64,000 nucleotides of DNA from Cognataquiflexum nitidum (GTDB lineage Bacteria > Bacteroidota > Bacteroidia > Cytophagales > Cyclobacteriaceae): contig NZ_JAKZAM010000015.1 of NCBI RefSeq assembly GCF_022538055.1, forward strand, positions 2,501 through 66,500. The letters are read 5' to 3'. The notes below the pieces were generated by a model. It did not search any database, was not told the DNA's origin, and worked only from the letters and a program-made list of their open reading frames with translations. Positions within the stretch are counted from its first letter, which is position 1. The number at the start of each line of letters is the position of its first letter. Of the stretch, positions 9,919 through 64,000 are shown one piece after another. A program made the translations under genes and the position numbers.

Positions 9919-10326
9919 TTATAAAAATTTTTGTTTTTCTTTTGTAGAGGGAATCCTGCAAGTTTCTTTTTTCCCAAACCACTTATACCTGTTTCTCGCA
10001 ATCCAGTCATAAATCGGATCTCTAATAAAGGCAGGCACGACATTAAAAATATACATGGCGGGCCAAGGGCTTTCCAAATTTCTTGCGATTTCAAGGGCCG
10101 CTTTACTTTTGTAAAACACCAAGTCACCTCTGATCAAAATGATAGAATCAATATAATCTTGGTTAATTTTATACTCCTTTAGAATAATTTTAGTGGCATT
10201 GTCCTGAAGAGCTCCAAATTTGAAGCAGTCGTTTTTATCCCTTCGGATAATAAAATCGACGGCGTTGTTGCACAAATTGCAGACGCCGTCGAAAAGGATA
10301 ATATCATACTTGTCTTGGATTCTCAT
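9919..10326 (-). CDS. Thiol-disulfide oxidoreductase, DCC family (DUF393)
   Basis: This 135-residue protein has the defining motif FDGVCNLCN near residue 14, giving the family its name (D-x-x-C-x-x-C). The middle part has the typical WPAMYIFNVVPAFIRDPIYD segment and a basic C-terminus. The family is thought to act in thiol-disulfide chemistry, with substrate unknown. Its start overlaps the stop of the upstream 925-residue gene by four bases (ATGA), so the two are probably cotranscribed. Confidence 0.92.
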   Translation of the reverse strand: MRIQDKYDIILFDGVCNLCNNAVDFIIRRDKNDCFKFGALQDNATKIILKEYKINQDYIDSIILIRGDLVFYKSKAALEIARNLESPWPAMYIFNVVPAFIRDPIYDWIARNRYKWFGKKETCRIPSTKEKQKFL

Positions 10327-50041: not shown

Positions 50042-51088
50042 CTAAAACTTTGGACAAGGTAAGAGTGTATCCCTTTTTCGTGTTCTTCCTTGGTTTTTGT
50101 CAGCCAAAAGGAACGAAATACTGACCTCATGGGCACCACCTGATTGAATGCCAAGCTGAGATACCGTGTAATCGAAACTATATCCCATACTCATTCCTGT
50201 CGGAAGGTTAAAACCGATCATCATGACGATGGCGTCACGGTTATTTTGATTTTCTACAGGTTTGTAAGGGAGCCCACGGTACCATATTCCGAGATTCAAG
50301 GGCTCCATATGGAGGTAAGCGCCTATATCGAGTTGCTCAAAAGGGCCCTGACGTTTGTAATTCAAGGTAGGAAGGAGATATCTTTGCTTTCTTTGATGCG
50401 TAAAATCAGAGCGGTAACTACCGGAACCCAAGGAGATTCTGTATCCGGTATGAATGGAAAATTTTGCAGGTAATGGACTTACTCCTTCTAAGAAAGATTG
50501 GTTTGGTTCATTGATATGGTGTGCAGAGAGACCAAACCAGAATTTGTCAGTAAAAAAAAGTCCACCAAAAGAAAGGGATAATAAATTTACAGGGTCACCT
50601 GACCCGGGAAGATCCGTACTAGGTAAAGTAGGCCCCAAGGGGTCAGCCGGATTAATCTGGTTGGCAAAAATGAGGTTTTCAAAAAAACCGATGTCCCTCC
50701 GGATGTAAGCAGCCTGAACACCCGGACGGAAGTAGGCGTTTTCGCCTACTCTGAGTTCATATGAATACAATCCGGCAACAGTAGTAGATCTTAATTTTGC
50801 ACCGCCTTCTACATCATTCATAACCATAAAACCAATTCCGCTGTTATAATCATCAAGATAGGTATCATAGTATGCTGAGAAAGTAGTAAACTGTGCCTGA
50901 AGCCCGGGCCATTGGTTTCTGTAGTTCGCGCCGATGCGGGGCAACATTTCGGATCCCGTAAAGGCAGGATTAAGATATAGAGGCGCTGCATAGTACTGAC
51001 TGAATTGCGGGTCCTGTGCCTGCAATGTCATTGTTCCCATAAAAATAAAGGAAACGAAAAAAAGACGGTGGATAAAAGACCTTTGCAA
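50042..51088 (-). CDS. PorP/SprF family type IX secretion membrane protein
   Basis: This 348-residue outer membrane beta-barrel starts from a TTG at 51088. QRSFIHRLFFVSFIFMGTMT there is a proper signal peptide, cleaved before QDPQFSQYYAAPLYLNPAFT, the family hallmark. Upstream ATG codons would run through the divergent gene's promoter and coding start. The barrel has repeated aromatic strand ends and MVMNDVEGG and GIGFMVMN-like segments. PorP/SprF proteins are needed for export of type-B CTD cargo encoded nearby. Here the cargo is the large gene cluster divergent from it. Confidence 0.88.
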   Translation of the reverse strand: MQRSFIHRLFFVSFIFMGTMTLQAQDPQFSQYYAAPLYLNPAFTGSEMLPRIGANYRNQWPGLQAQFTTFSAYYDTYLDDYNSGIGFMVMNDVEGGAKLRSTTVAGLYSYELRVGENAYFRPGVQAAYIRRDIGFFENLIFANQINPADPLGPTLPSTDLPGSGDPVNLLSLSFGGLFFTDKFWFGLSAHHINEPNQSFLEGVSPLPAKFSIHTGYRISLGSGSYRSDFTHQRKQRYLLPTLNYKRQGPFEQLDIGAYLHMEPLNLGIWYRGLPYKPVENQNNRDAIVMMIGFNLPTGMSMGYSFDYTVSQLGIQSGGAHEVSISFLLADKNQGRTRKRDTLLPCPKF

Positions 51089-51170
51089 GTTGTAATTCGT
51101 TATGTTAGCAATTAGATTCACCTTTGCAACGTCCAAAACGTTTTGTTGTTTTAAACGCAACGTGTAAATT
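51089..51170. promoter_or_regulatory. Compact divergent control region with palindrome and direct repeats
   Basis: Only 82 bases separate the porP TTG from the ATG of the 1831-residue gene. CAAAACGTTTTG at 51134-51145 is a perfect 12-bp palindrome. GCAACGT occurs on both sides of it at 51126-51132 and 51157-51163. A TAAATTATG overlaps the ATG of the large gene. No full TTG/TAnnTTTG promoter is evident. Confidence 0.45.
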
Positions 51171-54100
51171 ATGAAAAGCCTAAGTAATTCCATAAAAATT
51201 TCCTTTTTTTTTAGTGCGCTAATAATTTTGAACTTTGTATTCAATGCCGCACCCCTATACGCCCAAGGTTTTAACAATAATGAATGGATATTTGGCGATT
51301 GTGGAACAGGCCAAAACAACATTCTTTCATTTGGAAAAGGTGAAGAACCAATAGTAAGGAATCTTCCAAGCGGGGTGATTATTGGACAAAATAACAACGC
51401 TGTTGCCATTGATCCAATTTCTGGGAACATTATTTTTTATTCCAATGGAGTTTTGGTCTATGACGCTAACAATCAGGTGCTCGAAGGTGTAGCTCCGGGC
51501 ATTGACGGGAACATCAACGGACAGCAAGAATTGGCCATTGGTGTATTGAGTTATGATCCTCAGGGAGATAGGTTGTATTATATTTTTTACGTAAACCCCG
51601 TAGGAGATTTGCAATATGCCCTGATTGACATGAATGCACCGGGCCAGGCAGTTGGGAATGAACCTCCCTTGGGTGAGATCATAGAGAAAGACCAAGTCAT
51701 CGTGGGTGCTGTCTCAGGACCAATCATGGTCGTAAAGACCCCTCAATCTCCATCTTACCTGATTAGTATCGAAGGAGGTTCGATTGTGTCCAGAAGGATA
51801 GGAGCCAATCCCGGTGAATTTATACTCAATTCAAATGCGGCGGTACCATTTACACCAAAGTTTATGGTTTTTGATGAAGCTTCCCAAAAAATCATATTAA
51901 TACCCGAAGATCCTAACGAAGATATCGTGGTTGTGGATTTTGATGTTGCCACTGGATCTTTTGGTGCCCTTGAGCCTATCACCCAGTCAAGCAATGCCAA
52001 TGATTTTGGAGGAGCCTCCTTTTCCCCTGATGGAGATTATATTTATTTCTCCAGAGGAGACGAGTTGTTGCGTGTACCCTTGAGTGACTTGACGGCAATT
52101 CCCGAGGTAATCCCGCTTGAAAACGATGTTTTTCAGATTTATGACGTCAAAATTGGACCTGATGGCAGGCTTTACTATATCTACGAGGAGGTCGCAGGCG
52201 GCCCGCAGCTGATAGGCAGAGTAGAAAATCCCGATGTAGTCGACCTCGCTGAAATCGAATTGGAAGAAGATCTATTTGACGGAACTGATTTTTGCGGGAG
52301 GATTTTCCCTCAGTTTGCCCCAAATCAAAATATCAATGCCACAGTGGATTTTGAATGGAACCCGGATGAACCTTGCTCTAACAATCCAATACAGTTGACA
52401 AGTCTGATTACTCCTGAGAACTTCCGACCTGTAAGTTTTGAGTGGACTTTTAATCCACCGTTGACAGATGAAGATGGAGCACCTGTAGATATTGATTTTA
52501 CCCAGGAACATTTGTTGATCCCCGAGGAAGCTACTTCCAACGAGAGCATAGATGTTACCCTGACCGTAACATTTGCAGACGGAACCACACAGACAGTAAA
52601 CAAAACCATCACTTTGTTGCCCAACGAATTACAGGTTCAATTCAGCGCGCAGGATACCACAGTTTGTGAAGGGGCATGTGTGGACATTGGATCAATGCTT
52701 GAAGTTCAAGCTGGTGATGGCCAAGGTGGCGGGGGAGGCGGAGGTGGAACTTATGAATATTTCTGGTCCAATATCCGGGAATGGAGACCAACCAAAGATA
52801 ATTGTGTTGATTTGCCGGGTTTGTATTGGGTATTGGTGAGAGAACCTGGTTCTGAATGCTATGCTTATGGTAGTGTCAGGGTTAGAATTTGGGATTTAAA
52901 TGACCAAAGCAATAACATTTGGTATTTTGGTGATGGTGCCGGATTGGATTTTAATCCTGATCCCAATGATCCCAACGGACCTACACCTAGAGCAGTCAGC
53001 CATAATCAGAACATTCCCGCCGGTACCACCACGATTTCAGATGAAACTGGGCAGGTTTTGTTTTTTACAGACGGAGAGACTGTGTGGGATCTTAATGGCA
53101 ATGTCATGGAAAACGGAGATAGCATAGGTGGAAGTAACCTTTCTTCCCAAAGTGTATTGGCTATACCTGTTCCTCAAGACGAGACCATCTTTTACCTCTT
53201 TACTACTCAAACTGCAGCAGACGGCAGCAATCAGGTAAAGTTTTCAGTTGTTGATATCAAGGTCGAAAACCCCAACGGGGTAGGTAATGTAGTAAGCAAA
53301 GATAATTTTCTTTTCAGTCCAAGCACGGAGCATTCAGCGGCCCTTGCAGCTGGAGATACCACATGGGTTTTATTTCACGAACTCGGTAACAATACCTTTA
53401 GGGCATATCCGGTTTCCATATTTGGTATAGGTAGCCCGGTATTTAGTTCTGTTGGATCCAATCATGGTTTCAATACAGGAGTGGGTACTATGAAATTCAG
53501 CCCTGATGGGACCAAGGTCGCTGTTACTATTCAAGATGGGGCTTGTAGCCGATTGGAAATATTTGACTTCGATCCTGAGAATGGAGAAATGACAGAGTAT
53601 GCTTTATTGGATTTGGGTTGCAATGGAGAGGATATTTACGGAATGGAATTTTCTCCTGATGGCAGTCGGGCTTATGTCTCCTTTCTAGGTGGCGGGGGGA
53701 AAGTGGAGGAGTTTTTGATCCAGGCTCCAGAGCAAACTGGTACCACACCTTTGGCATGTGCGGCTTGTTTTGATAATGCCAATACAAGGCCACAAAGAGA
53801 AGCATGTATTTTGAATTCACCGGTAAGGGGAGTTTTAAGTACATCGGGTCCATTTGGTGCGCTACAGATAGGTCCGGATGGACAAATTTATGTAGCACGT
53901 CCAGGTCAAAACATGTTGGGATCAATCAATGCCGGTTCAGATTGTAACGTAAGTATTTATAATGAAATGGGTTCTCCTCCATTGACCGGAACAAGCAACC
54001 TTGGATTACCGTCTTTTGTACAACAGTCAGGAAGTAGTATTCCGGATCCGTTGCTTTCAGGAACCCCTCAGTTATGTCTTGATCCACAAAATGGGGTAAT

Positions 54101-56666
54101 AGGACAGTTTCAAGGTGCCGGCGAATCCGATATTGACAGTTACTTCTGGACAATAACCCATGAGGACGGTACCGTGGAGTTAAATAACTTTGGAGGACCT
54201 GGTGAGCAGTTTCAAATTTATGAACATCAATTTACCAGACCTGGTTTTTATACTGTTGATCTTAGGGTAGACCGCTGTGGCGATCCTGATTTTTATGAAG
54301 GAAGGCTTGATGTTTTAGTCATAGCTCCGCCTACTCTCACTTTGCCTGAAGCCGTTACTTTGTGTTTGGGAACTCCGATAAGCCTTACTGCCATAGATGG
54401 TTATGATCCTGCTGAGGGTCTTTATGATTTCGAATGGAGGAACGCTGCAGGGCAGTTATTTGGAGACCAAAACTCAAATACCATCATAGTCAATGAAGAA
54501 AGTATTTTCACTGTAACAGTCTCTCATAGACCGGGTGCAGGCGTAGATCCGGCCTTTTTTGACCCCTGCCCTTCTGAAGCTTCGGTTTTTGTTGGGCCTG
54601 CCTTCGAATTTGACCTGACCCAAACAGCAGAGCAGGTTTGTTACGATGAAAACCTAGTTGTTTTCGCACCCAACACTCCCATCTCCGGACAATGGTTTTA
54701 TCAAGTTCAAGGGACAGTAAACAGGATTCCTCTAGGTGAATTTTTTGAGCTGAACTTGATTCCAAATACCCTGCCTTCTCCTGGGGTTTATGACATCATA
54801 TTTATAACAGAAGATCCAATCTTAGAAGGATGTATTATCGAAAAGCAATTGGAATTGATTGTTTTTCCGATCCCTGTATTTGAAGTTGTCGTTTTGACTG
54901 ATGCGGATGATTGTGTCGCGGCAAATGGAAGTTTTGAAATAACCATGTTGGCTGATGCGGATGAAGTCAGGATTGTTGAAACAGGTCAAACCTTTACAAA
55001 TGTTAGTTCGGGAGATGTGTTGCCGGTGGTTACCGGACTTGAGCCGGGAGTTTATACACTGGTAGCTACAAGTGATTCAGGTTGTGAGTTTTTACTCCCT
55101 GTAGTTGTCAGGAACCTAAATCCACCTGTGGGGATTTCTGATTACGAAATCACAGCCAACCCTGAGACTTGTTCGGCAACTGGAGTGGACTTTGGATCAA
55201 TGGATATTGTTTTTAACCTGGGTCCACAATCAGGTTCTTACCAATTAATCCGACAAGAGGATGGTCAGCAGTTTACAGGAACTTTCACTGGTGTAACTAC
55301 TATCAATGTCCCACTACCGGATGGAACCTATAATCTGACTCTGATAGATGATGTCGATTGTGCTTTTCCTGATCCGGTTTCTTATATTATTGATAATGCC
55401 GACCAAGTTGAGTTTTCGGTTCCTACCAATGTCACAGCTTGCGCCCTTTATGTATTGGTACCTATCTCTCAGAATAATCTAAACTATGAGGTAAGGGGTC
55501 CAAATGGACAGTTGATCAGTCCTGACCAAGACGGTGGTTTTACTTTTGAGTTTACAGGTGTTTACACAGTCCGTGGCATCGATCCAAGTGGGGTTTTGTG
55601 TCCAAGCGAATTGAGCCTGATTCAAGCAGTAATAAACAGTCCAATTGATTTCTCCTTGAGTGACCCAATTGTAGACTGTGATTTGGGAATTTCCTATCAG
55701 GCAGTTCTTTTTGGCTTCAATCCAAACAATGCTAATTTTTATTGGAGAGATTCTAATGGAAACATTGTAGGTAGAAATCAGGTCTTTTTCCCGGCAAGTC
55801 CGGGAGTTTATTCTGTTGAAGTACAGCCAAGAAGTGGTGGATTGTGCCCGGAAAGAACAATAGAATTTGAGGTTGAGGAATTCTTGGAAAATCTAGAAGT
55901 CAATTTGGTGGCCCAACAATTTTGTGAGGGAGATACATTCGCTAACATCAATATAGAAGCTGATTTCACCAATGTTGATGAAATTCTATGGTTTAGTGTC
56001 CTCGGTTCAGTAAGGACACCTTTACCCGGGTTTACGGATCAACAAACCATTACCGTATTTGACACAGGAGTATTTGAAGCTGTGCTCAACAGTGTTTTTG
56101 GCTGTGAATTGGCAAGAGAGCAAGTTCAGATCTCGAGGTCGGTTATCGTTCCTCCAGTATTGGCGCCTAGCTACACCATTTGTGCAATTGAAAATGTGAC
56201 TGTACAGCTTCGTCCCGGTACATATGACTTCTATTCATGGAAACTTGAAGGCAATGAAGTTTCTACGGATTCTGTATTTGTGCCTACACTGCCCGGCAAT
56301 TACCTATTGACCGTATCGGATCTCCTTGGTTGTGATTACACTATAAGCTTTGAAGTTGTGGAAGACTGTGCATTAAGGGTAATTTTCCCTGATGCCATCG
56401 TTCCAAGCAGGCCTGATAGGCATTTCTTGGTTTATGCCAACGACTTTGTTGATGAATTGGAAGTGTTTATTTTCAACCGATGGGGAGAGCTGATTTTCTA
56501 TTGCGAGCAAAAAAACATTAATAGTGATACTTTTGTTTGTAGTTGGGATGGATCAGTAAATGGAACTTATGTCCCCATCGGTGTGTATCCAGTAGTAGTT
56601 AATTACAAGAGCAATAATCAAAACGTCACCAACAAAATCACCAAATCTATTTTAGTCATTGAGTAA
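51171..56666 (+). CDS. Giant secreted adhesin-like protein 1, variant type-B CTD
   Basis: This 1831-residue protein has a signal peptide (about 1-31, LYAQ). Two beta-propeller-like modules begin NNEWIFGDCGTGQNN (near 37) and NNIWYFGDGAGLDFN (near 580). Between them lies a PKD-like segment and a Gly-rich linker with eight Gly in a row. A second PKD-like domain (near 980) and Ig-like repeats follow, then a module near 1400-1650 shared with the next two giants. The variant CTD at about 1735-1831 has VFIFNRWGELIFYC, WDGSVNG and PIGVYPVVV, but the canonical FPNAFTPNGDG text is replaced by IFPDAIVPSRPDRHF. The pair Cys-x11-Cys replaces it in part. Exported through type IX with porP nearby is inferred. 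Confidence 0.9.
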   Translation: MKSLSNSIKISFFFSALIILNFVFNAAPLYAQGFNNNEWIFGDCGTGQNNILSFGKGEEPIVRNLPSGVIIGQNNNAVAIDPISGNIIFYSNGVLVYDANNQVLEGVAPGIDGNINGQQELAIGVLSYDPQGDRLYYIFYVNPVGDLQYALIDMNAPGQAVGNEPPLGEIIEKDQVIVGAVSGPIMVVKTPQSPSYLISIEGGSIVSRRIGANPGEFILNSNAAVPFTPKFMVFDEASQKIILIPEDPNEDIVVVDFDVATGSFGALEPITQSSNANDFGGASFSPDGDYIYFSRGDELLRVPLSDLTAIPEVIPLENDVFQIYDVKIGPDGRLYYIYEEVAGGPQLIGRVENPDVVDLAEIELEEDLFDGTDFCGRIFPQFAPNQNINATVDFEWNPDEPCSNNPIQLTSLITPENFRPVSFEWTFNPPLTDEDGAPVDIDFTQEHLLIPEEATSNESIDVTLTVTFADGTTQTVNKTITLLPNELQVQFSAQDTTVCEGACVDIGSMLEVQAGDGQGGGGGGGGTYEYFWSNIREWRPTKDNCVDLPGLYWVLVREPGSECYAYGSVRVRIWDLNDQSNNIWYFGDGAGLDFNPDPNDPNGPTPRAVSHNQNIPAGTTTISDETGQVLFFTDGETVWDLNGNVMENGDSIGGSNLSSQSVLAIPVPQDETIFYLFTTQTAADGSNQVKFSVVDIKVENPNGVGNVVSKDNFLFSPSTEHSAALAAGDTTWVLFHELGNNTFRAYPVSIFGIGSPVFSSVGSNHGFNTGVGTMKFSPDGTKVAVTIQDGACSRLEIFDFDPENGEMTEYALLDLGCNGEDIYGMEFSPDGSRAYVSFLGGGGKVEEFLIQAPEQTGTTPLACAACFDNANTRPQREACILNSPVRGVLSTSGPFGALQIGPDGQIYVARPGQNMLGSINAGSDCNVSIYNEMGSPPLTGTSNLGLPSFVQQSGSSIPDPLLSGTPQLCLDPQNGVIGQFQGAGESDIDSYFWTITHEDGTVELNNFGGPGEQFQIYEHQFTRPGFYTVDLRVDRCGDPDFYEGRLDVLVIAPPTLTLPEAVTLCLGTPISLTAIDGYDPAEGLYDFEWRNAAGQLFGDQNSNTIIVNEESIFTVTVSHRPGAGVDPAFFDPCPSEASVFVGPAFEFDLTQTAEQVCYDENLVVFAPNTPISGQWFYQVQGTVNRIPLGEFFELNLIPNTLPSPGVYDIIFITEDPILEGCIIEKQLELIVFPIPVFEVVVLTDADDCVAANGSFEITMLADADEVRIVETGQTFTNVSSGDVLPVVTGLEPGVYTLVATSDSGCEFLLPVVVRNLNPPVGISDYEITANPETCSATGVDFGSMDIVFNLGPQSGSYQLIRQEDGQQFTGTFTGVTTINVPLPDGTYNLTLIDDVDCAFPDPVSYIIDNADQVEFSVPTNVTACALYVLVPISQNNLNYEVRGPNGQLISPDQDGGFTFEFTGVYTVRGIDPSGVLCPSELSLIQAVINSPIDFSLSDPIVDCDLGISYQAVLFGFNPNNANFYWRDSNGNIVGRNQVFFPASPGVYSVEVQPRSGGLCPERTIEFEVEEFLENLEVNLVAQQFCEGDTFANINIEADFTNVDEILWFSVLGSVRTPLPGFTDQQTITVFDTGVFEAVLNSVFGCELAREQVQISRSVIVPPVLAPSYTICAIENVTVQLRPGTYDFYSWKLEGNEVSTDSVFVPTLPGNYLLTVSDLLGCDYTISFEVVEDCALRVIFPDAIVPSRPDRHFLVYANDFVDELEVFIFNRWGELIFYCEQKNINSDTFVCSWDGSVNGTYVPIGVYPVVVNYKSNNQNVTNKITKSILVIE

Positions 56667-56680
56667 ACTTCAAATACAGC

Positions 56681-57430
56681 ATGATTACCCTTATTTCCCC
56701 TGCCAAAACACTTGATTTAAGTACCTCAGAATTCCCGGTATATTCATTGCCTGACTTTCAAAAGGAAACTTTTGAGCTTGTCAGAATAATGCAGAAAAAA
56801 TCCATACAGGATCTACAAAATTTAATGGGTATCAGTGAAAACCTAGCAGTCCTGAATAAGCAGCGCTTTGTGGATTTCCAAAAAAAATTTGAAATCCAAA
56901 ATTCAAAACAATCACTTTTGGCTTTCAAAGGAGATGTCTACATGCAAATTGATGTCGAGAATTACTCAAAAGAAGATTTTGAATTTGCCCAGGAAAGACT
57001 CAGGATTCTTTCTGGATTGTATGGTATGTTAAAGCCTCTGGACTTGATTCAGCCTTATCGTTTGGAAATGGGGATTCGTTTGGAGAATAAAAATGGGAAA
57101 AATCTTTACGAGTTTTGGGGTACAAGGATCGCCAAAGCCATTAATGAAGTTGCTAAAGGGGAAACTTTAGTGAATCTTGCTTCCCATGAATACTTCAAAG
57201 CAGTGGATCAAAAAATATTGGAACCGAAAGTCATCACGCCTATTTTTCAGGAATACAGAAACGGTAAATATGAAATTATCGGTCTATTTGCCAAAAAAGC
57301 GCGTGGAATGATGGTCAATCACATCATTAAAAATAGAATTAATGACCCAGAATTACTCAAAACATTCAATGAGTCAAATTACGAATGGGTGGGAGAGGAT
57401 GCTGATGGGATTTGGAGGTTTGTAAGATAA
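56681..57430 (+). CDS. yaaA: Peroxide stress protein YaaA (DUF328)
   Basis: This 249-residue cytoplasmic protein of the YaaA family limits intracellular free iron under peroxide stress. The family begins ITLISPAKTLDL and has the conserved LYGMLKPLDLIQPYRLEMG near 122, NLASHEYFKAVD near 165 and AKKARGMMVNHIIKNRI near 202. It is 14 bases after the giant 1 stop and 138 bases before giant 2, an unusual housekeeping gene inside a surface protein run. The AT-rich gap 57431-57592 shows no gene. Confidence 0.95.
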   Translation: MITLISPAKTLDLSTSEFPVYSLPDFQKETFELVRIMQKKSIQDLQNLMGISENLAVLNKQRFVDFQKKFEIQNSKQSLLAFKGDVYMQIDVENYSKEDFEFAQERLRILSGLYGMLKPLDLIQPYRLEMGIRLENKNGKNLYEFWGTRIAKAINEVAKGETLVNLASHEYFKAVDQKILEPKVITPIFQEYRNGKYEIIGLFAKKARGMMVNHIIKNRINDPELLKTFNESNYEWVGEDADGIWRFVR

Positions 57431-57592
57431 TTTTGATTAAATACCTCAAGGTTTTTTTGAGCAGATATTATACATATAAATGTTTTTTATATTTAAAATA
57501 ATGTATTTTAAATACATAAATATTTTTTTATATAATTAAAATACTGTAGTTTTGGGTCAAGGTTTCTTTTGAATCTTTATCCTATCTCGCAA

Positions 57593-60500
57593 ATGAAAAC
57601 TTTAAAAAATCACCTCATTGCAATTCTATTGCTTTTTTTGTCCCTGCAATCGGGAATTGCCTCTATAGAACCAGATTTGGATCATAAAAATCCGGGAGAA
57701 GTTTCTGCTATTTTATCTGGTACACTCAGCGACTTTGGAATAACAGGACCTGAAAAATTGTGTCTTTATCAAGGAAGTATAATAGGGGAATTTTTTGGTG
57801 GAGGTTTAGTTTCAGATGTATTTCGATGGAAAATTATCAAAACTGACGGAAGTGTTCTGATTGAAAGGGAAGGTGGATTTCAATCTTTCAGTCATACCTT
57901 TTCAGAACAAGGCGAATTTGAAATCCAACTGACCATAAGAAGAGGGGTAGAACAAGTATATTCCGGAACAAAAAAAATCATCATAAACAAAGAGGCAGAT
58001 TTAGTCATACAAAATTCATATCTGTTATGTAACGATGGTACAGCCACACTGACATTATTGGATCCAAACACACCTAACCTCAGTTCTTTTCAAATAGAAT
58101 GGTATGATGGAAACGGCCAACTTATTGGAACAGGTAACAGTATCCAAGTCAATAAAGAGGATAAGTATAATGTTGAATTTTTTACCCTGAATGAAATAGG
58201 AGGGCAAGTTTGTCCATTTTCAATTACTACCTACGTTTATAAACCTAAGGAGTACCAATTGACAATTAGTACAGATCAGGTCTGTGAAGGATCTCAATCT
58301 ACAATTGTTTCTGCAGGAAATTCGGTTTTCGGATCTTGGTTTTTTCAAAAAGAAGGTACTGATGACAAAGTATTTCTTGGAAAAGGCAATAAATGGCAGA
58401 TTGTTGGGGGTAGGGATTTGCAGGGCCCCGGCTTGTATAAGATAATTTTTGAAGTAGATAACAGTGCTTCCGAATATTGTAAAACTGAAGATTTTGTAAA
58501 TTTCACTGTAAACCAGCATAGCAATTTCAATATTAGCTTTGAAAAGGGTTCAGAAAATTGTGGTTCCAACGATGGGATTTTGGAAATCGTTGCTTTGACT
58601 GACTTGGATATCTTGAGGGTAAGAAGAGATGGGATTGTTTTTGCCACGTTCCGAAACCTTACCGAAGGTGAAGTAATAAAAATCCCAGGATTGTCACCGG
58701 GATTATATGCTGCTTCAGGTGCTTTGAATGGATGTTCACGATCAAAAGGAGCTATTTTGCCACTAACCAACCCCCCATCCAACCTTGAATACACCATAAA
58801 GGAAGTGGTCGGAGAATCCTGTAATATTTCCGGAAAAATTGATGGTCAAATCCACATCAAAATGCTTGAAGCAAATTTCTCGGGGACCTACAGACTTTTG
58901 ACAACAACAGGTGGAGTAGTGAAAAAAGGAGATTTAATTGATGTTGAAGAATTTTCGATTTTAGCTCCTGCAGGGAATTATTTTGTCGAAATCAGTGAAA
59001 CTACAGGCTGCGTCAATCCAAAAACTGAGAGAATTGTAATCGGTAGCAAACCTCAGGTTAGCTATTCAATAACTGATAGATTGAATGTTTGCGGGTATTT
59101 TGATTTAACCCCAACTACAAATCAAAATCTGTCATTTACTTTGACTTACCCAAACAATTCTAAGGTGACAAAATCCAAAGACGATGCTTTTAGAATTGAC
59201 CAATCCGGGGAATACATTTTATTGGGATTTGAAAGCGATTCTCAGGGAGGATTGTGTCCAAAAGAAACAACGCTATTTGTGACTGTTTCCAATCCTATCG
59301 ATTATCAACCTGAATTGATTTCAAGTGATTGTTTTGGTAATAAGCAGTATGTTGCTAATCTCTTTGGGGCCGATCCAAGCAGGTTTAATATTACTTGGTT
59401 CAATGAAAAAAATGAAATAGTCGGAACAGAAGAGTTTTTATTCCCAACTACTTTTGGAGAATTTAAACTTGAAGTGCAGCCTAAAAACTCGGAGGCATGC
59501 CCAACACCTCCAAAATCCTTTAAAATCGATCGTGAAGTTCTAGAGGTAGAGTTATCTCTTCAATCTTCAGCACTTTGTCCGGGAGGGATTTCCGAGATTA
59601 CTCTTTCAACAGATCAAGAGTCAGTTAAAACCATTTCTTGGTTGTACATAGATTTATTGGGGAAAATATCGTTTTTGGAACAATTCGAAAATGAAACCCG
59701 GATTTCTGTCAGCAGGCCGGGTAGCTATGAGGCGGTTGTATTCAATGATTTATCCTGTGAGATCGGCAGAGCACTTGTCAGCATAAAAGAAAGTGAGGAT
59801 TTGGCATTCTTTGAAGTGCCTGAACAGTTGGTTGTCTGCGAAACTTATGAACTTATTCCTACTACGGATTTGGATTTGAAATTCACAGTTATCAATCCGG
59901 ATGGAACCTCAAATACTTATGGGAAAGGTGAAAGTTTCTTAATATCAGAAAATGGGGAGTATTCCATAACAGGTGAAAGTGCCGACAGCAATATTGCCTT
60001 GTGTACTGTTACAAAAAAATTACAGGTAATAAAAAATATTTCAGTGGATTTTGAACCCGAAATTTTTGAACAAAACTGTGAAGGAAAACTTGTTTATTCA
60101 GCAAACTTGTTTGGCAAACCTGTTGCAGAAGTTGATTTTTTTTGGTACAATGAAGTCGGGGAGTTGGTCGGAACTGAAGAATTCATGAGCCCACAGAGTT
60201 TCGGTATTTTTGAGTTGGAAGTAAGACCAAAAGGAAGTTTTCCATGTCCTGGACCAAACAAAAAGAAGTTTGAAATAAGTAAGCCTGTACTTGAATTGGA
60301 AGGTAAACTTGTATCCTCGCCATACTGTCCGGATACAGAAAGCGTTTCTATTATATTAGAGGCCAATCTTTCCCCTTCAATCATTATCAATTGGTTTTTT
60401 ACAGATTTCAATGGGAATAGAGTCTCAATAGTAAATTTTTCAAATCAGAAAGAAATCGTGGTTTCTCAAGAAGGTACATACGAGGTGGAGATGAGAAACC

Positions 60501-61075
60501 ATCTGGGTTGTCTTTTAGGAAGTGACTTAATCCTCCTCATGAAAAGTATGGATGAAAATAGGCCTCAGGTCGAAGAAAGTTATATCATCTGTAATTCATT
60601 GGGAAATGCTGTATCTATCGATCCGGGTTCTTTCTTAAAGTATGAATGGTTTTTGAACGGAGTTTTGGTGAATGACAAACCTACATTTTCACCATCAGAG
60701 AAAGGAAGTTACAGATTGACCGTGACGAGTTTTGAAGGCTGTTTATTCACGACTTTCTTTGAAGTAAAGGAAGAATGCGTTTTTCAAGTCAGACATACCA
60801 CCGGAATGAGCACAAAGGATGTTTCAAGACCATTTAAGGTGTATTCCAATTCTTTGGTTGATCAAATTGAGGTTTATATCTTCAACAATTGGGGTCAGAT
60901 GGTTTTCCATTGTACCAAGCAAAATTTTGATTCTGGAATGGACTCTTGCGAATGGAATGGAGAATTTAATGGACAGTCAATTCAGCCTGGGAATTATTCC
61001 GTCAAGATCATTTATAAAAATAATTTTGAAAATATTTCTAAATCCATAATAAGCTCAGTTACAGTTGTTGATTGA
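57593..61075 (+). CDS. Giant secreted adhesin-like protein 2, variant type-B CTD, duplicated module
   Basis: This 1160-residue protein starts at ATG 57593, giving signal peptide MKTLKNHLIAILLLFLSLQS. Ig/PKD-like domains follow, the first with GPEKLCLYQGS near 52. A module of about 248 residues occurs twice in tandem: residues about 488-735 (YSITDRLNVCGYFDLTPTTN, SDCFGNKQYVANLFGADP) and 736-983 (FFEVPEQLVVCETYELIPTT, QNCEGKLVYSANLFGKPV). The variant CTD (about 1063-1160) has EVYIFNNWGQMVFHC, CEWNGEFNG and IQPGNYSVKI. The first Cys of the pair precedes the second by 12 residues. Paralogue of its neighbours. Confidence 0.9.
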   Translation: MKTLKNHLIAILLLFLSLQSGIASIEPDLDHKNPGEVSAILSGTLSDFGITGPEKLCLYQGSIIGEFFGGGLVSDVFRWKIIKTDGSVLIEREGGFQSFSHTFSEQGEFEIQLTIRRGVEQVYSGTKKIIINKEADLVIQNSYLLCNDGTATLTLLDPNTPNLSSFQIEWYDGNGQLIGTGNSIQVNKEDKYNVEFFTLNEIGGQVCPFSITTYVYKPKEYQLTISTDQVCEGSQSTIVSAGNSVFGSWFFQKEGTDDKVFLGKGNKWQIVGGRDLQGPGLYKIIFEVDNSASEYCKTEDFVNFTVNQHSNFNISFEKGSENCGSNDGILEIVALTDLDILRVRRDGIVFATFRNLTEGEVIKIPGLSPGLYAASGALNGCSRSKGAILPLTNPPSNLEYTIKEVVGESCNISGKIDGQIHIKMLEANFSGTYRLLTTTGGVVKKGDLIDVEEFSILAPAGNYFVEISETTGCVNPKTERIVIGSKPQVSYSITDRLNVCGYFDLTPTTNQNLSFTLTYPNNSKVTKSKDDAFRIDQSGEYILLGFESDSQGGLCPKETTLFVTVSNPIDYQPELISSDCFGNKQYVANLFGADPSRFNITWFNEKNEIVGTEEFLFPTTFGEFKLEVQPKNSEACPTPPKSFKIDREVLEVELSLQSSALCPGGISEITLSTDQESVKTISWLYIDLLGKISFLEQFENETRISVSRPGSYEAVVFNDLSCEIGRALVSIKESEDLAFFEVPEQLVVCETYELIPTTDLDLKFTVINPDGTSNTYGKGESFLISENGEYSITGESADSNIALCTVTKKLQVIKNISVDFEPEIFEQNCEGKLVYSANLFGKPVAEVDFFWYNEVGELVGTEEFMSPQSFGIFELEVRPKGSFPCPGPNKKKFEISKPVLELEGKLVSSPYCPDTESVSIILEANLSPSIIINWFFTDFNGNRVSIVNFSNQKEIVVSQEGTYEVEMRNHLGCLLGSDLILLMKSMDENRPQVEESYIICNSLGNAVSIDPGSFLKYEWFLNGVLVNDKPTFSPSEKGSYRLTVTSFEGCLFTTFFEVKEECVFQVRHTTGMSTKDVSRPFKVYSNSLVDQIEVYIFNNWGQMVFHCTKQNFDSGMDSCEWNGEFNGQSIQPGNYSVKIIYKNNFENISKSIISSVTVVD

Positions 61076-61336
61076 CCCATTCAGGATTTTGGGTATTTGA
61101 TTTTGAAGGTTGGATGGTTTTTTTTGTCATACAAACAATTTTAATTTTAAAAGTGTAGTTGCACCATATTTTCCATTGATAATAAGAACGTTAGACCGAT
61201 AATTTTGAGTTGTAATTTTTTGCAGAAGGATATTAATGGTATTGTTTTTGTGTTGTACATTGGGATGTTGGTTTTTGGATTTTTGGTCTTGAATCACACT
61301 ATCTCGCTGATATACCACCTATGTAATGATTGTTTT
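61076..61336. other. AT-rich intergenic region, no gene
   Basis: This 261-base gap between giants 2 and 3 has no supported gene, tRNA or clear terminator hairpin. A TTTTTTTTGT stretch at about 61117-61127 lies after the giant 2 stop. Giant 3 may have its own promoter here, but no convincing TTG/TAnnTTTG pair was found. Confidence 0.4.
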
Positions 61337-64000
61337 ATGAAAAAATGCTCCTACTTTTTAAGGCTGCGATTTATCTTGGGTCTGCTCTTTTTCTTTTCAG
61401 GAATTGAACAAATTTTTGGAAATGAGCCTGATCTTCCTGTAAATATGGCAGGCTTTTTTGTAGACCCTGTATTGTCAGGTCCCGATAATTTGTGTGTCAT
61501 TTTCGGCAGTGCCATAGCTGATTTTTCAGGAGGTGGTGAACCCACCACAGATGTGTATGATTGGGTGATTACAAATCCCTCAGGAGGAGAACATTTCACA
61601 AGAAATGGAGGCGCAACTTTCCAAAATATCAGTGTTCAGTTTTCCCAACTTGGGGTTTATACAGTCTCTTTAAGGGTAAGAAGGGGTAATGATATCATTT
61701 ACAGCGCATCAAAAACTCTTTCTGTAATCCAAGGCCCCCAAATTGTCCTCCAGCCTGATTATTTATTATGCGGAAGCGCACCAAGATTACTCACAGCCAT
61801 CAATCCTGCCACTCCGAATATCAATCAATACACTTTTGAGTGGACAAATTCCTCTGGAGATATTATTGGAAATCAAAATGAATTGAGTGTAGAGGATGAA
61901 GGGTTTTATTTTATATCACTGTTTTTGACAAATTCATTAGGAGGTACCGATTGTCAAATAAACGGTGGGACATACGTGGGGCAGCCAAGGGATTTTCGTT
62001 TGTTGATCAATAGTCCGGAGGTCTGTATGGGCGAAACCGTTGAGCTTGCGTTAGATACTCCTATCTCGGGCCAATGGTTGATTCAGAAAATCGGAGAAAC
62101 GGATTTGATTGAACTTGGGAATGCATTCTCTCTGAGTTTGGATTCAGAGGAGGATCTTTTTGGGCCGGGAAATTACAGGGCTGTTTTTAGAGCGCTTGAT
62201 AGCCAATACCCTGATTGTGTATCGGAAAGAGATATCAGTTTTTCTTTAAAAAACCAAGCTGAATTTACATATTCCAATATAGTGGCTGCTTCTGGTTGCA
62301 ATATGCAGGATGGAGGCTTTTTGTTTACAGCCCAATCGGACTTGGATTTTCTGAGAATCAATGAGCTTTCATTGTTGGAAGCGGATCTTTCTGCTGGAGA
62401 AACTCGGTCTTTTTCTAACCTTTACCCGGGAATTTATGTCGTAGAAACCCAATTAGATGGTTGTAACAGATCTGAAGTTATAATTATTCCGAATAATAAT
62501 CCTGTTCCCGACATGATGTTTGAGGTAGTCGAAATCGGAGAGTCATGTTCAGAAACAGGAAAAATAAATGGAATTATCAGGGTAAATTTACTGAATGGAC
62601 CCTATACAGGAGAATATAGAGTAGTAGAAGCATCCGGGGCTATATTTTTTTCAGGGGTAATATCCAATGTCAGTTCCTTTGATGTTTCTGTTCCGGGAAA
62701 TAATTATGCTATAGAAATAATTTCTCCTTCGGGATGCAAATTTCCTGAAAACAGAATTCTGGATATTCCGGTGAAAGAATTCGTGCCATTTACTATTCCT
62801 GAACAACTTACAATTTGTGGAGATTTTGATTTTATTCCTTCTACTGATCAGAATTTAGCATTTACCTTGATCAGCCCATCGGGTCAGACAGAGACCAAAA
62901 ACGCAGGTGAAGTGTTTGTTTTGAACCAATCAGGAAATTATACCTTGACAGGGACTAGCTTAGATCTAAATCCAGAATTTTGCCCCCGGACGATTCCTTT
63001 CTCTGTGGTGAATGTAGCTGTTCCTAATTTTGAACCTGTTTTGGAGAGTGAGGATTGCTTCGGTAATAAACTATACAAGGCAGAATTGTTTGGTGCAGAT
63101 CTTTCCACAGTGTCGATAAGGTGGTATGATGAAAATCTAAAGATCGTTGGAAGGGGAGAAATGTGGTATCCGACAGCTTATGGTAATTTTTCTTTGGATG
63201 TACAGCCTAGGGCTTCAAGTCTTTGTGGTTTCAATCCAAAACCTTTTGAAGTGAGACCCCCGGTTTTTGAAGTTGATATGACATTGACTGCGGGATTGAT
63301 CTGTGGCGAAGGACAATTGGCCACCGTTTTATTAGAATCAGATTTTGAAGAAGTCGATAGGATAGAGTGGATATTCATTGCAGCTGATGGGACGCAAGCT
63401 ATTTTGACACAGTTTGCAGACGAAAGAGAAATAGAAGTTGCTGAAGAAGGAACATATGAGGCTGTGGTTTACAATCGTATTGGCTGTGAGATAGGACGAG
63501 ATTTGATCCTCGTGTTGAAAAGTTATGATGAAACAAGACCTGACATAAAACCTTTTTATTCGATTTGCACGGAGTCCAACTATGGTGAGATTGTAAACCC
63601 CGGGATTTTTGACTCGTATGAGTGGTTTCTCGATGGTGAGTTTGTTTCGGATGAGCCAAAATTGAATCTCAGAAACGAAGGCAATTATACCTTATTCGTA
63701 ACCAATGCAGATGGTTGTGTTTTTGAGTCCTCTTTTTCTACTTTCGAAGATTGTACTTTCGAGGCCATCCTTACCACAGGGATGAACCTGAATGATGTCA
63801 ATAAGCATTTTGAAGTGTATGTAAATGATGCAGTTGAGAAAGCACAAATATGGATTCACAACCGAAATGGAGAACTGATCCATTTCTGTGAAAATAACGA
63901 AATACAATCAAGAGTGGCTTTTTGTCAGTGGGATGGTTTGGTAAGAGGTAAAGAAATACCAGTAGGTTCATATACAGTAACCTTGAGAATCATCAGCACG
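61337..64000 (+). CDS. Giant secreted adhesin-like protein 3, variant type-B CTD (3' end outside window)
   Basis: An open frame of 888 codons runs from ATG 61337 to the last base without a stop. It has the signal peptide MKKCSYFLRLRFILGLLFFF and the Ig/PKD-like start GPDNLCVIFGSAIADFSGGG, matching GPEKLCLYQGS of giant 2. The shared module appears only once (about 484-735, EDCFGNKLYKAELFGADLS). The variant CTD begins near residue 813 (AILTTGMNLNDVNKHFEVY) with NRNGELIHFC and CQWDGLVRG, and reaches PVGSYTVTLRIIST. By comparison with giant 2 about 20 residues are missing, so the complete protein is about 905-910 residues. Confidence 0.88.
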   Translation, partial: MKKCSYFLRLRFILGLLFFFSGIEQIFGNEPDLPVNMAGFFVDPVLSGPDNLCVIFGSAIADFSGGGEPTTDVYDWVITNPSGGEHFTRNGGATFQNISVQFSQLGVYTVSLRVRRGNDIIYSASKTLSVIQGPQIVLQPDYLLCGSAPRLLTAINPATPNINQYTFEWTNSSGDIIGNQNELSVEDEGFYFISLFLTNSLGGTDCQINGGTYVGQPRDFRLLINSPEVCMGETVELALDTPISGQWLIQKIGETDLIELGNAFSLSLDSEEDLFGPGNYRAVFRALDSQYPDCVSERDISFSLKNQAEFTYSNIVAASGCNMQDGGFLFTAQSDLDFLRINELSLLEADLSAGETRSFSNLYPGIYVVETQLDGCNRSEVIIIPNNNPVPDMMFEVVEIGESCSETGKINGIIRVNLLNGPYTGEYRVVEASGAIFFSGVISNVSSFDVSVPGNNYAIEIISPSGCKFPENRILDIPVKEFVPFTIPEQLTICGDFDFIPSTDQNLAFTLISPSGQTETKNAGEVFVLNQSGNYTLTGTSLDLNPEFCPRTIPFSVVNVAVPNFEPVLESEDCFGNKLYKAELFGADLSTVSIRWYDENLKIVGRGEMWYPTAYGNFSLDVQPRASSLCGFNPKPFEVRPPVFEVDMTLTAGLICGEGQLATVLLESDFEEVDRIEWIFIAADGTQAILTQFADEREIEVAEEGTYEAVVYNRIGCEIGRDLILVLKSYDETRPDIKPFYSICTESNYGEIVNPGIFDSYEWFLDGEFVSDEPKLNLRNEGNYTLFVTNADGCVFESSFSTFEDCTFEAILTTGMNLNDVNKHFEVYVNDAVEKAQIWIHNRNGELIHFCENNEIQSRVAFCQWDGLVRGKEIPVGSYTVTLRIIST

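Follow-up and report, generated by a model that had tools for sequence, protein, structure and literature searches.

Do the three giant genes that stand beside a porP gene in Cognataquiflexum nitidum carry a sorting signal of their own? The stretch of DNA analyzed here (hereafter, the window) comprises 64,000 nt (contig NZ_JAKZAM010000015.1, positions 2,501 to 66,500) and ends in a run that the first-pass annotation described as a dedicated secretion set, i.e., a PorP-type carrier and three giant paralogues whose C-terminal domains (CTDs) would form a disulfide-bearing, PorP-linked subtype of the type-B sorting domain of the type IX secretion system (T9SS). The arrangement was confirmed, with porP on the (−) strand followed by the giants G1, G2, and G3 on the (+) strand. 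All three CTDs contain two cysteines exactly 12 residues apart (C-x11-C), lack the N-A-F-T-P-N-G motif, and are preceded by a further Cys in an acidic context, and the 925-aa protein at 10323, named as a canonical example, indeed scored as type B (PF13585, 57.3 bits; TIGR04131, 35.6 bits). We found that the Cys-pair CTD does exist as a subtype, confined to one clade and not a general type-B trait, but that linkage to PorP is no hallmark of it.

The clade restriction was evident from a tree of CTD tails. Out of 135 unique tails, 15 were dropped by hand before tree building (fragments, mis-framed pieces, and distant type-B rows), including two that carry both Cys, L048 and L097 (L numbers denote loci). 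The remaining 120 distinct rows comprised 73 with both Cys, 46 with neither, and 1 with the second Cys only. In this tree, which was computed in quick mode with SH-aLRT support only, every pair-bearing row fell inside a single 82-row clade (SH-aLRT 97), where 73 rows had both Cys, 8 had neither, and 1 had one. With the loops removed before tree building, the fewest changes needed to place the pair on the tree numbered 6, compared with a mean of 37.3 after shuffling, a value consistent with one gain followed by five losses. The loop between the two Cys positions was 14–20 residues long in the clade and 9 residues long in 33 of the 38 rows outside it; these lengths were derived from a text pattern, which returned 32 for L063 and L108, where the alignment shows 9. 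All named clade members belong to Cyclobacteriaceae (Mariniradius, Belliella, Indibacter, Cecembia, Echinicola, Algoriphagus, Cyclobacterium, and one Cyclobacteriaceae metagenome-assembled genome), and the pair was present in 16 of 16 loci from L084 to L099. Two further loci are irregular, through either assembly error or decay: no open frame covers the giant match in L100 (Algoriphagus antarcticus), and in L104 (Nitritalea halalkaliphila), where the loop is long and has no Cys, porP and G1 are in several pieces and look broken.

A DNA pattern for the pair occurred at 8 places in 4 of 395 genomes of the phylum, all of them in giants already matched, whereas the CHU_C model (PF13585) was matched in 208 of 395 genomes sampled the same way. 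The pattern requires W-G and therefore misses G3-type tails; it also missed one clade genome (G103), and its reversed control returned 1 place (genome G404). Within the family, 77 of 295 genomes reached an E-value of less than 1e-30 with a profile of the clade CTD, a count read by eye that rests, for most of these genomes, on the profile score and not on the Cys themselves, and the E-values showed a gap from about 2e-32 to 4e-21. Among the matches listed, 63 further loci (L101–L163) had no loop Cys in 60 cases, one in 2, and two in 1; these background loci come from the best 80 of the matches listed for the pattern I-[FYH]-N-[RN]-x-G and include outgroup relatives of G1. No loop Cys pair was seen in nine other type-B-like tails examined in the source genome. 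The idea that the pair is a general type-B trait was rejected on the 8 places in 395 genomes and the 60 of 63 further loci devoid of loop Cys. The single background tail with two loop Cys, a type-B-like one from Crocinitomicaceae (L155), has them at a shorter spacing, C-x4-C, possibly an independent gain. A literature search found no description of a Cys pair in type-B CTDs, with most subscription papers outside its reach.

The giants' CTDs retain the R-W-G segment (N-W-G in G2 and R-N-G in G3), W-[DN]-G (W-D-G varies in a few rows), and P-x-G-x-Y at the extreme C terminus. With hmmscan, G1 passed the PF13585 cut-off of 27 (29.7 bits), and G2 (23.3) and G3 (19.9) stayed below it; a six-frame search gave 27.1 and 23.7, respectively. 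Two other G1 tails of the clade passed as well (35.5 and 36.6), so the canonical CHU_C model recovers 3 of 3 clade G1 tails tested. Outgroup G1 tails passed it in 8 of 8 cases (41.8–71.8 bits) and passed TIGR04131 in 6 of 8; these eight were picked by hand from the 14 outgroup rows of a 44-row alignment, and the two other clade tails were hand-picked as well. Part of the sequence has changed. The missing N motif, which was given as stated by the first-pass annotation and not as a curated definition, distinguishes the subtype in its first half: P-[NTS]-[AVTG]-F is missing from all 82 clade rows and present in 31 of the 38 rows outside. Its second half does not, since a TPNG-like pattern was found in 4 of 82 clade rows and in only 10 of 38 others. 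An R or K ends 37 of the 38 outside rows and only 6 of the 82 in the clade. The departure from the standard type-B tail is stepwise and, judged by tree and synteny, the clade CTD shares descent with accepted type-B cargo; it is best termed a derived variant instead of a standard member. The acidic-context Cys was rejected as a mark of the subtype: none of the 44 aligned tails, 14 of which come from the outgroup, lacks it, and it is therefore ancestral. A PDB sequence search with the G1 tail yielded only unrelated viral glycoproteins (best E-value, 0.01).

Several observations bear on whether the two Cys are bonded to each other. Of the 120 rows, 119 have either both or neither, and where the pair is present, loops of 16, 17, 18, and 20 residues all keep a Cys at both ends. 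In addition, the number of Cys in the mature protein is even in 80 of 82 clade rows, despite counts that span 18 to 34; the two odd rows are the G3 of L053, in which one of the paired Cys has been lost, and a protein of L206 considered below. In comparison, outgroup G1 proteins had even counts in 21 cases and odd counts in 14 (n = 35). An earlier and cruder count with a fixed 60-residue cut (75 of 86 odd) was replaced because this cut removed real mature Cys, e.g., in FGDC of G1. Since the two Cys come and go together and mature counts are mostly even, an intramolecular bond is likely, and the two CTD Cys most likely form one disulfide that closes the loop. A bond between the CTD and PorP was considered and rejected, as PorP has one Cys only, located in its tail.

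In all 42 fetched clade loci (39 distinct ones, three genomes having been fetched twice), the carrier gene and G1 are arranged head to head. However, 33 of 37 outgroup loci have this divergent PorP next to a G1 relative that lacks the pair, and the linkage therefore does not define the subtype; adjacency to PorP is ancestral, and the pairing with it ordinary. In addition, three Cys-tagged orphans have no PorP in the 15–19 kb fetched around them. Behind G1, yaaA follows in 42 of 42 fetched clade loci, whereas only 5 of 37 outgroup loci have it at any downstream position; further giants follow in 32 of 42 clade loci, some contigs ending early. Six PorP positions hold one residue in at least 90% of 39 clade rows and another in at least 80% of 33 outgroup rows; counting strands from the periplasmic tail, these positions would lie in surface loops. 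Membership of the window protein in the PorP family is clear (PF11751, 229.3 bits with a cut-off of 22.3; TIGR03519, 252.7 bits with a cut-off of 90.55), and a PDB sequence search with it found no match. In Flavobacterium johnsoniae, the tested type-B cargo requires cognate PorP/SprF shuttles (PMC12618676). PorP and SprF bind type-B cargo (PMC9143113).

All 39 clade PorPs and 32 of 33 outgroup PorPs have exactly one Cys within roughly their last 310 residues. In the window PorP it sits in ...LPCPKF, and the C-x-C of the SprF-type gliding carrier is absent. The source genome also encodes a GldK with an R-G-C-L motif (Cys237) and a DUF6089 protein, which we take to be PorG, whose tail has one Cys (...KCYSY). 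Parts for a single-Cys disulfide attachment are therefore at hand in PorP (50054–50056), the PorG-like DUF6089 protein (L246:1456-2208), and GldK (L189:5885-6979). In F. johnsoniae, the second tail Cys of SprF bonds GldK, and a SprF variant with only that Cys still bonds part of the pool; PorG of Porphyromonas gingivalis functions with only one Cys in its tail, and in PorK the reactive Cys lies in R-G-C-F (PMC12635249). A bond between GldK and the tail Cys of PorP is possible, and this idea is more speculative than export by the adjacent carrier or the CTD disulfide.

Three orphan proteins of 1,421–1,427 aa bear the Cys pair (L054:2460-6725, L206:5789-10072, and L207:7917-12194). No PorP was found near them in the fetched 15–19 kb, of which only 2.4 kb lies upstream in L054. 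The orphans branch first within the 82-row clade, with a support of 91 for the other 79 rows. To about residue 975, their N-terminal parts are 37–47% identical (main segments) to C11 (1,432 aa) and C14 (4,272 aa), two type-B cargo proteins of the source genome without the pair, while their last ~430 residues match the giants at 26–34% (main segments). The orphans are thus chimeras in which the N terminus of another type-B cargo family has been joined to a Cys-pair tail, which looks like a natural tag swap. In the source genome, the C11/C14 family is accompanied by a PorP and an OmpA-like gene, the latter PorE-type by resemblance only. A type-B protein of 4,272 aa (L003:932-13750), with a central part built from numerous ~102-aa tandem repeats, adjoins porP and an OmpA-like gene. 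The source genome holds another variant CTD in two adjacent proteins of 1,047–1,073 aa (L007:5612-8833 and L007:9101-12244), with MPTGFIP..., a short loop, a shared Cys, and no PorP match in the fetched stretch; an Algoriphagus protein (L135) resembles this pair.

Taken together, these data make it likely that the giants are T9SS cargo with a derived, lineage-specific type-B CTD whose loop is closed by a disulfide, and that the adjacent PorP exports or holds them. The loop from R-W-G-E-L-[IV] to W-D-G would have lengthened from 9 to about 16 residues in the ancestor of a single Cyclobacteriaceae clade, with a Cys acquired at each end, and this clade would also have lost the basic last residue and the F within the N-A-F core. 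The giants most likely leave the SprA translocon on the adjacent divergent PorP and stay bound at the cell surface; type-B cargo has been proposed to remain bound to its carrier outside the cell (PMC9143113; PMC12618676). Copying would then have produced G2 and G3, and a fusion the orphan cargo that bears this tail. The role of the disulfide loop is probably either to stiffen the tag under load or to contribute to carrier specificity.

A number of points weigh against this interpretation. All three giants fall below the TIGR04131 cut-off of 35 (20.2, 19.7, and 17.0 bits for G1, G2, and G3, respectively), as do the two other clade G1 tails (28.3 and 25.2), so that this second canonical model, the NCBIfam type-B one, misses all 3 clade G1 tails that CHU_C finds. 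G2 scores almost equally on type A (TIGR04183, 19.9 with a cut-off of 23) and type B (19.7). Moreover, secretion of SprB requires five CTD motifs, A–E (PMC12618676). Regarding the disulfide, mature Cys counts were 20, 21, and 20 in the orphans, the odd one being that of L206, which retains both Cys of the pair. Parity itself depends on a heuristic that places the signal-peptide cut after the hydrophobic stretch. Because the rows are related, co-presence and parity are not independent events, which weakens all three lines of evidence for the bond, and a test on independent pairs (5–6 of 6 pairs agreeing, 0 disagreeing, median P = 0.0625) is suggestive only. Finally, the eight clade rows without either Cys keep a loop of 14–16 residues, and the bond would therefore be dispensable in some proteins.

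The chances are close to even that these are ordinary type-B CTDs subject to drift, in which the pair, whether or not it forms a disulfide, serves only to stabilize a decorated loop and plays no part in carrier recognition, the altered motif being a result of divergence. Such drift would account for the recognition of all tested clade G1 tails by CHU_C, for a TPNG part already gone from most outgroup rows, for the eight clade rows without the pair, and for an outgroup linkage to PorP that is identical. It explains less well that 73 of 82 clade rows kept the pair across G1, G2/G3, and orphans and that both the N-A-F core and the basic end were altered in this clade as well; the six PorP positions that differ between clade and outgroup also point away from it, although ordinary divergence may explain them.

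Two other explanations concern the partners of the tail. We regard it as improbable that the tails are not PorP cargo but belong to another sorting class (PorV/type A, or released proteins), with PorP serving something else. The near-equal scores of G2 and the orphans without a nearby PorP would fit that possibility, while the G1 tree and synteny shared with PorP-linked type-B cargo and the divergent PorP kept in 42 of 42 clade loci argue for PorP cargo, as does the type-A model, whose cut-off of 23 was not attained (the sole G3 match, at 9.6 bits, lies outside the CTD, and none is listed for G1). It is slightly less probable still, in our view, that the CTD Cys form intermolecular bonds with another giant or a T9SS component. 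Disulfides of this kind do occur in the machinery, between SprF and GldK and between PorG and GldK (PMC12635249), the Cys count of the L206 orphan is odd, and parity is compatible with two intermolecular bonds per CTD. Even counts in 80 of 82 rows combined with joint presence or absence favor an internal bond instead, and the single Cys of PorP lies in a tail that is periplasmic in SprF.

Beyond the likely reading of the giants as cargo with a disulfide-closed type-B variant, a wider scenario can be drawn that we consider rather unlikely as a whole: the lineage would have re-coded its type-B tag into a new signature composed of the disulfide-closed loop, the altered N-A-F core, and an acidic end, one PorP would have co-adapted through its surface loops to read it, the tag would have spread by copying and fusion, the orphans would have moved from a PorE-linked carrier to this PorP, and the tail Cys of PorP may bolt it to the GldK ring or track. 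If so, disulfides would act on both sides of the outer membrane. The part that deserves attention is the changed tag and the chimeras, which constitute a real, well-delimited variant of a known signal. Five motifs are necessary but not sufficient for the specificity of type-B carriers (PMC12618676). Evolution here supplies matched sets, namely, the same gene pair with an ordinary or an altered tag, paralogues that have or lack the Cys pair, and chimeras in which the body of one cargo bears the tag of another, and these make carrier choice directly testable with natural swaps.

The coordinates of the locus are compiled in Table 1. The open frame of porP is over-long, and the TTG start given there matches the size of its 348–349-aa orthologues; a porP-G1 spacing of 81–85 bp in 27 of 42 clade loci supports the same start. 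The extra N-terminal half of G1 contains a match to the PD40 propeller slightly below the cut-off. G2 and G3 align with G1 over about 870 aa at 31–32% identity, and the three are therefore paralogues as whole proteins; the alternative that sharing is confined to the CTDs was rejected on this homology. G3 (L001:3705-6551) is about 905–948 aa long, and an in-frame ATG at 61334 would yield about 905 aa. The source genome as a whole has 20 places that match PF13585 at E-values up to 10, of which 11 exceed the cut-off, and 7 PorP genes above the cut-off.

Table 1. Features of the porP–giant locus, in window coordinates
Feature	Position	Strand	Remarks
PorP/SprF-family outer-membrane carrier	50042..51088	−	likely TTG start at 51088; open frame extends to 51430
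Single C-tail Cys codon of PorP (...LLPCPKF)	50054..50056	−	
Divergent intergenic gap porP/G1	51089..51170	.	82 bp, given the TTG start
G1, 1,831-aa giant	51171..56666	+	extra N-terminal half, PKD/Ig-like region, variant CTD
G1 variant type-B-like CTD, last 105 aa	56349..56663	+	includes acidic-context Cys at 56367-56369
G1 loop Cys1778-Cys1790 (C-x11-C)	56502..56540	+	directly 5′ of W-D-G
yaaA, peroxide stress protein family	56681..57430	+	PF03883, 283.9 bits; starts 14 bp after G1, before G2
G2, 1,168-aa giant	57569..61075	+	in-frame ATG at 57593; paralogue of the G1 C-terminal half
G2 variant CTD	60758..61072	+	Cys pair at 60911-60913 and 60947-60949; acidic-context Cys at 60776-60778
G3, giant paralogue	61205..64000	+	window end cuts the gene; stop 51 bases beyond
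G3 variant CTD, incomplete in window	63734..64000	+	Cys pair at 63887-63889 and 63923-63925; acidic-context Cys at 63752-63754

Set against known systems, the window PorP is a clear member of the PorP/SprF family (PF11751, TIGR03519) by score and resembles SprF in having a C-tail Cys (PMC12635249), but it has one tail Cys where C-x-C is reported for SprF and its close homologues. The F. johnsoniae orphans Fjoh_1123, Fjoh_1720, and Fjoh_4934 share one carrier, Fjoh_1677 (PMC12618676); the clade orphans likewise have no porP in the fetched stretch but differ in being chimeras, and a shared carrier would be presumed for them. The closest comparison is with the type-B CTD (TIGR04131; CHU_C, PF13585) of proteins such as SprB of F. 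johnsoniae. Both stand at the C terminus of giant PKD/Ig-like secreted proteins, both contain the R-W-G segment, W-[DN]-G, and P-x-G-x-Y and have a PorP/SprF neighbor, and the giants are linked by tree and by synteny to proteins scoring above the model cut-offs. They differ in the altered N-A-F core and a TIGR04131 score below the cut-off, in a Cys-flanked loop of 16–20 residues where type B has 9, and in a last residue that is mostly acidic or neutral in the clade and basic in type B.

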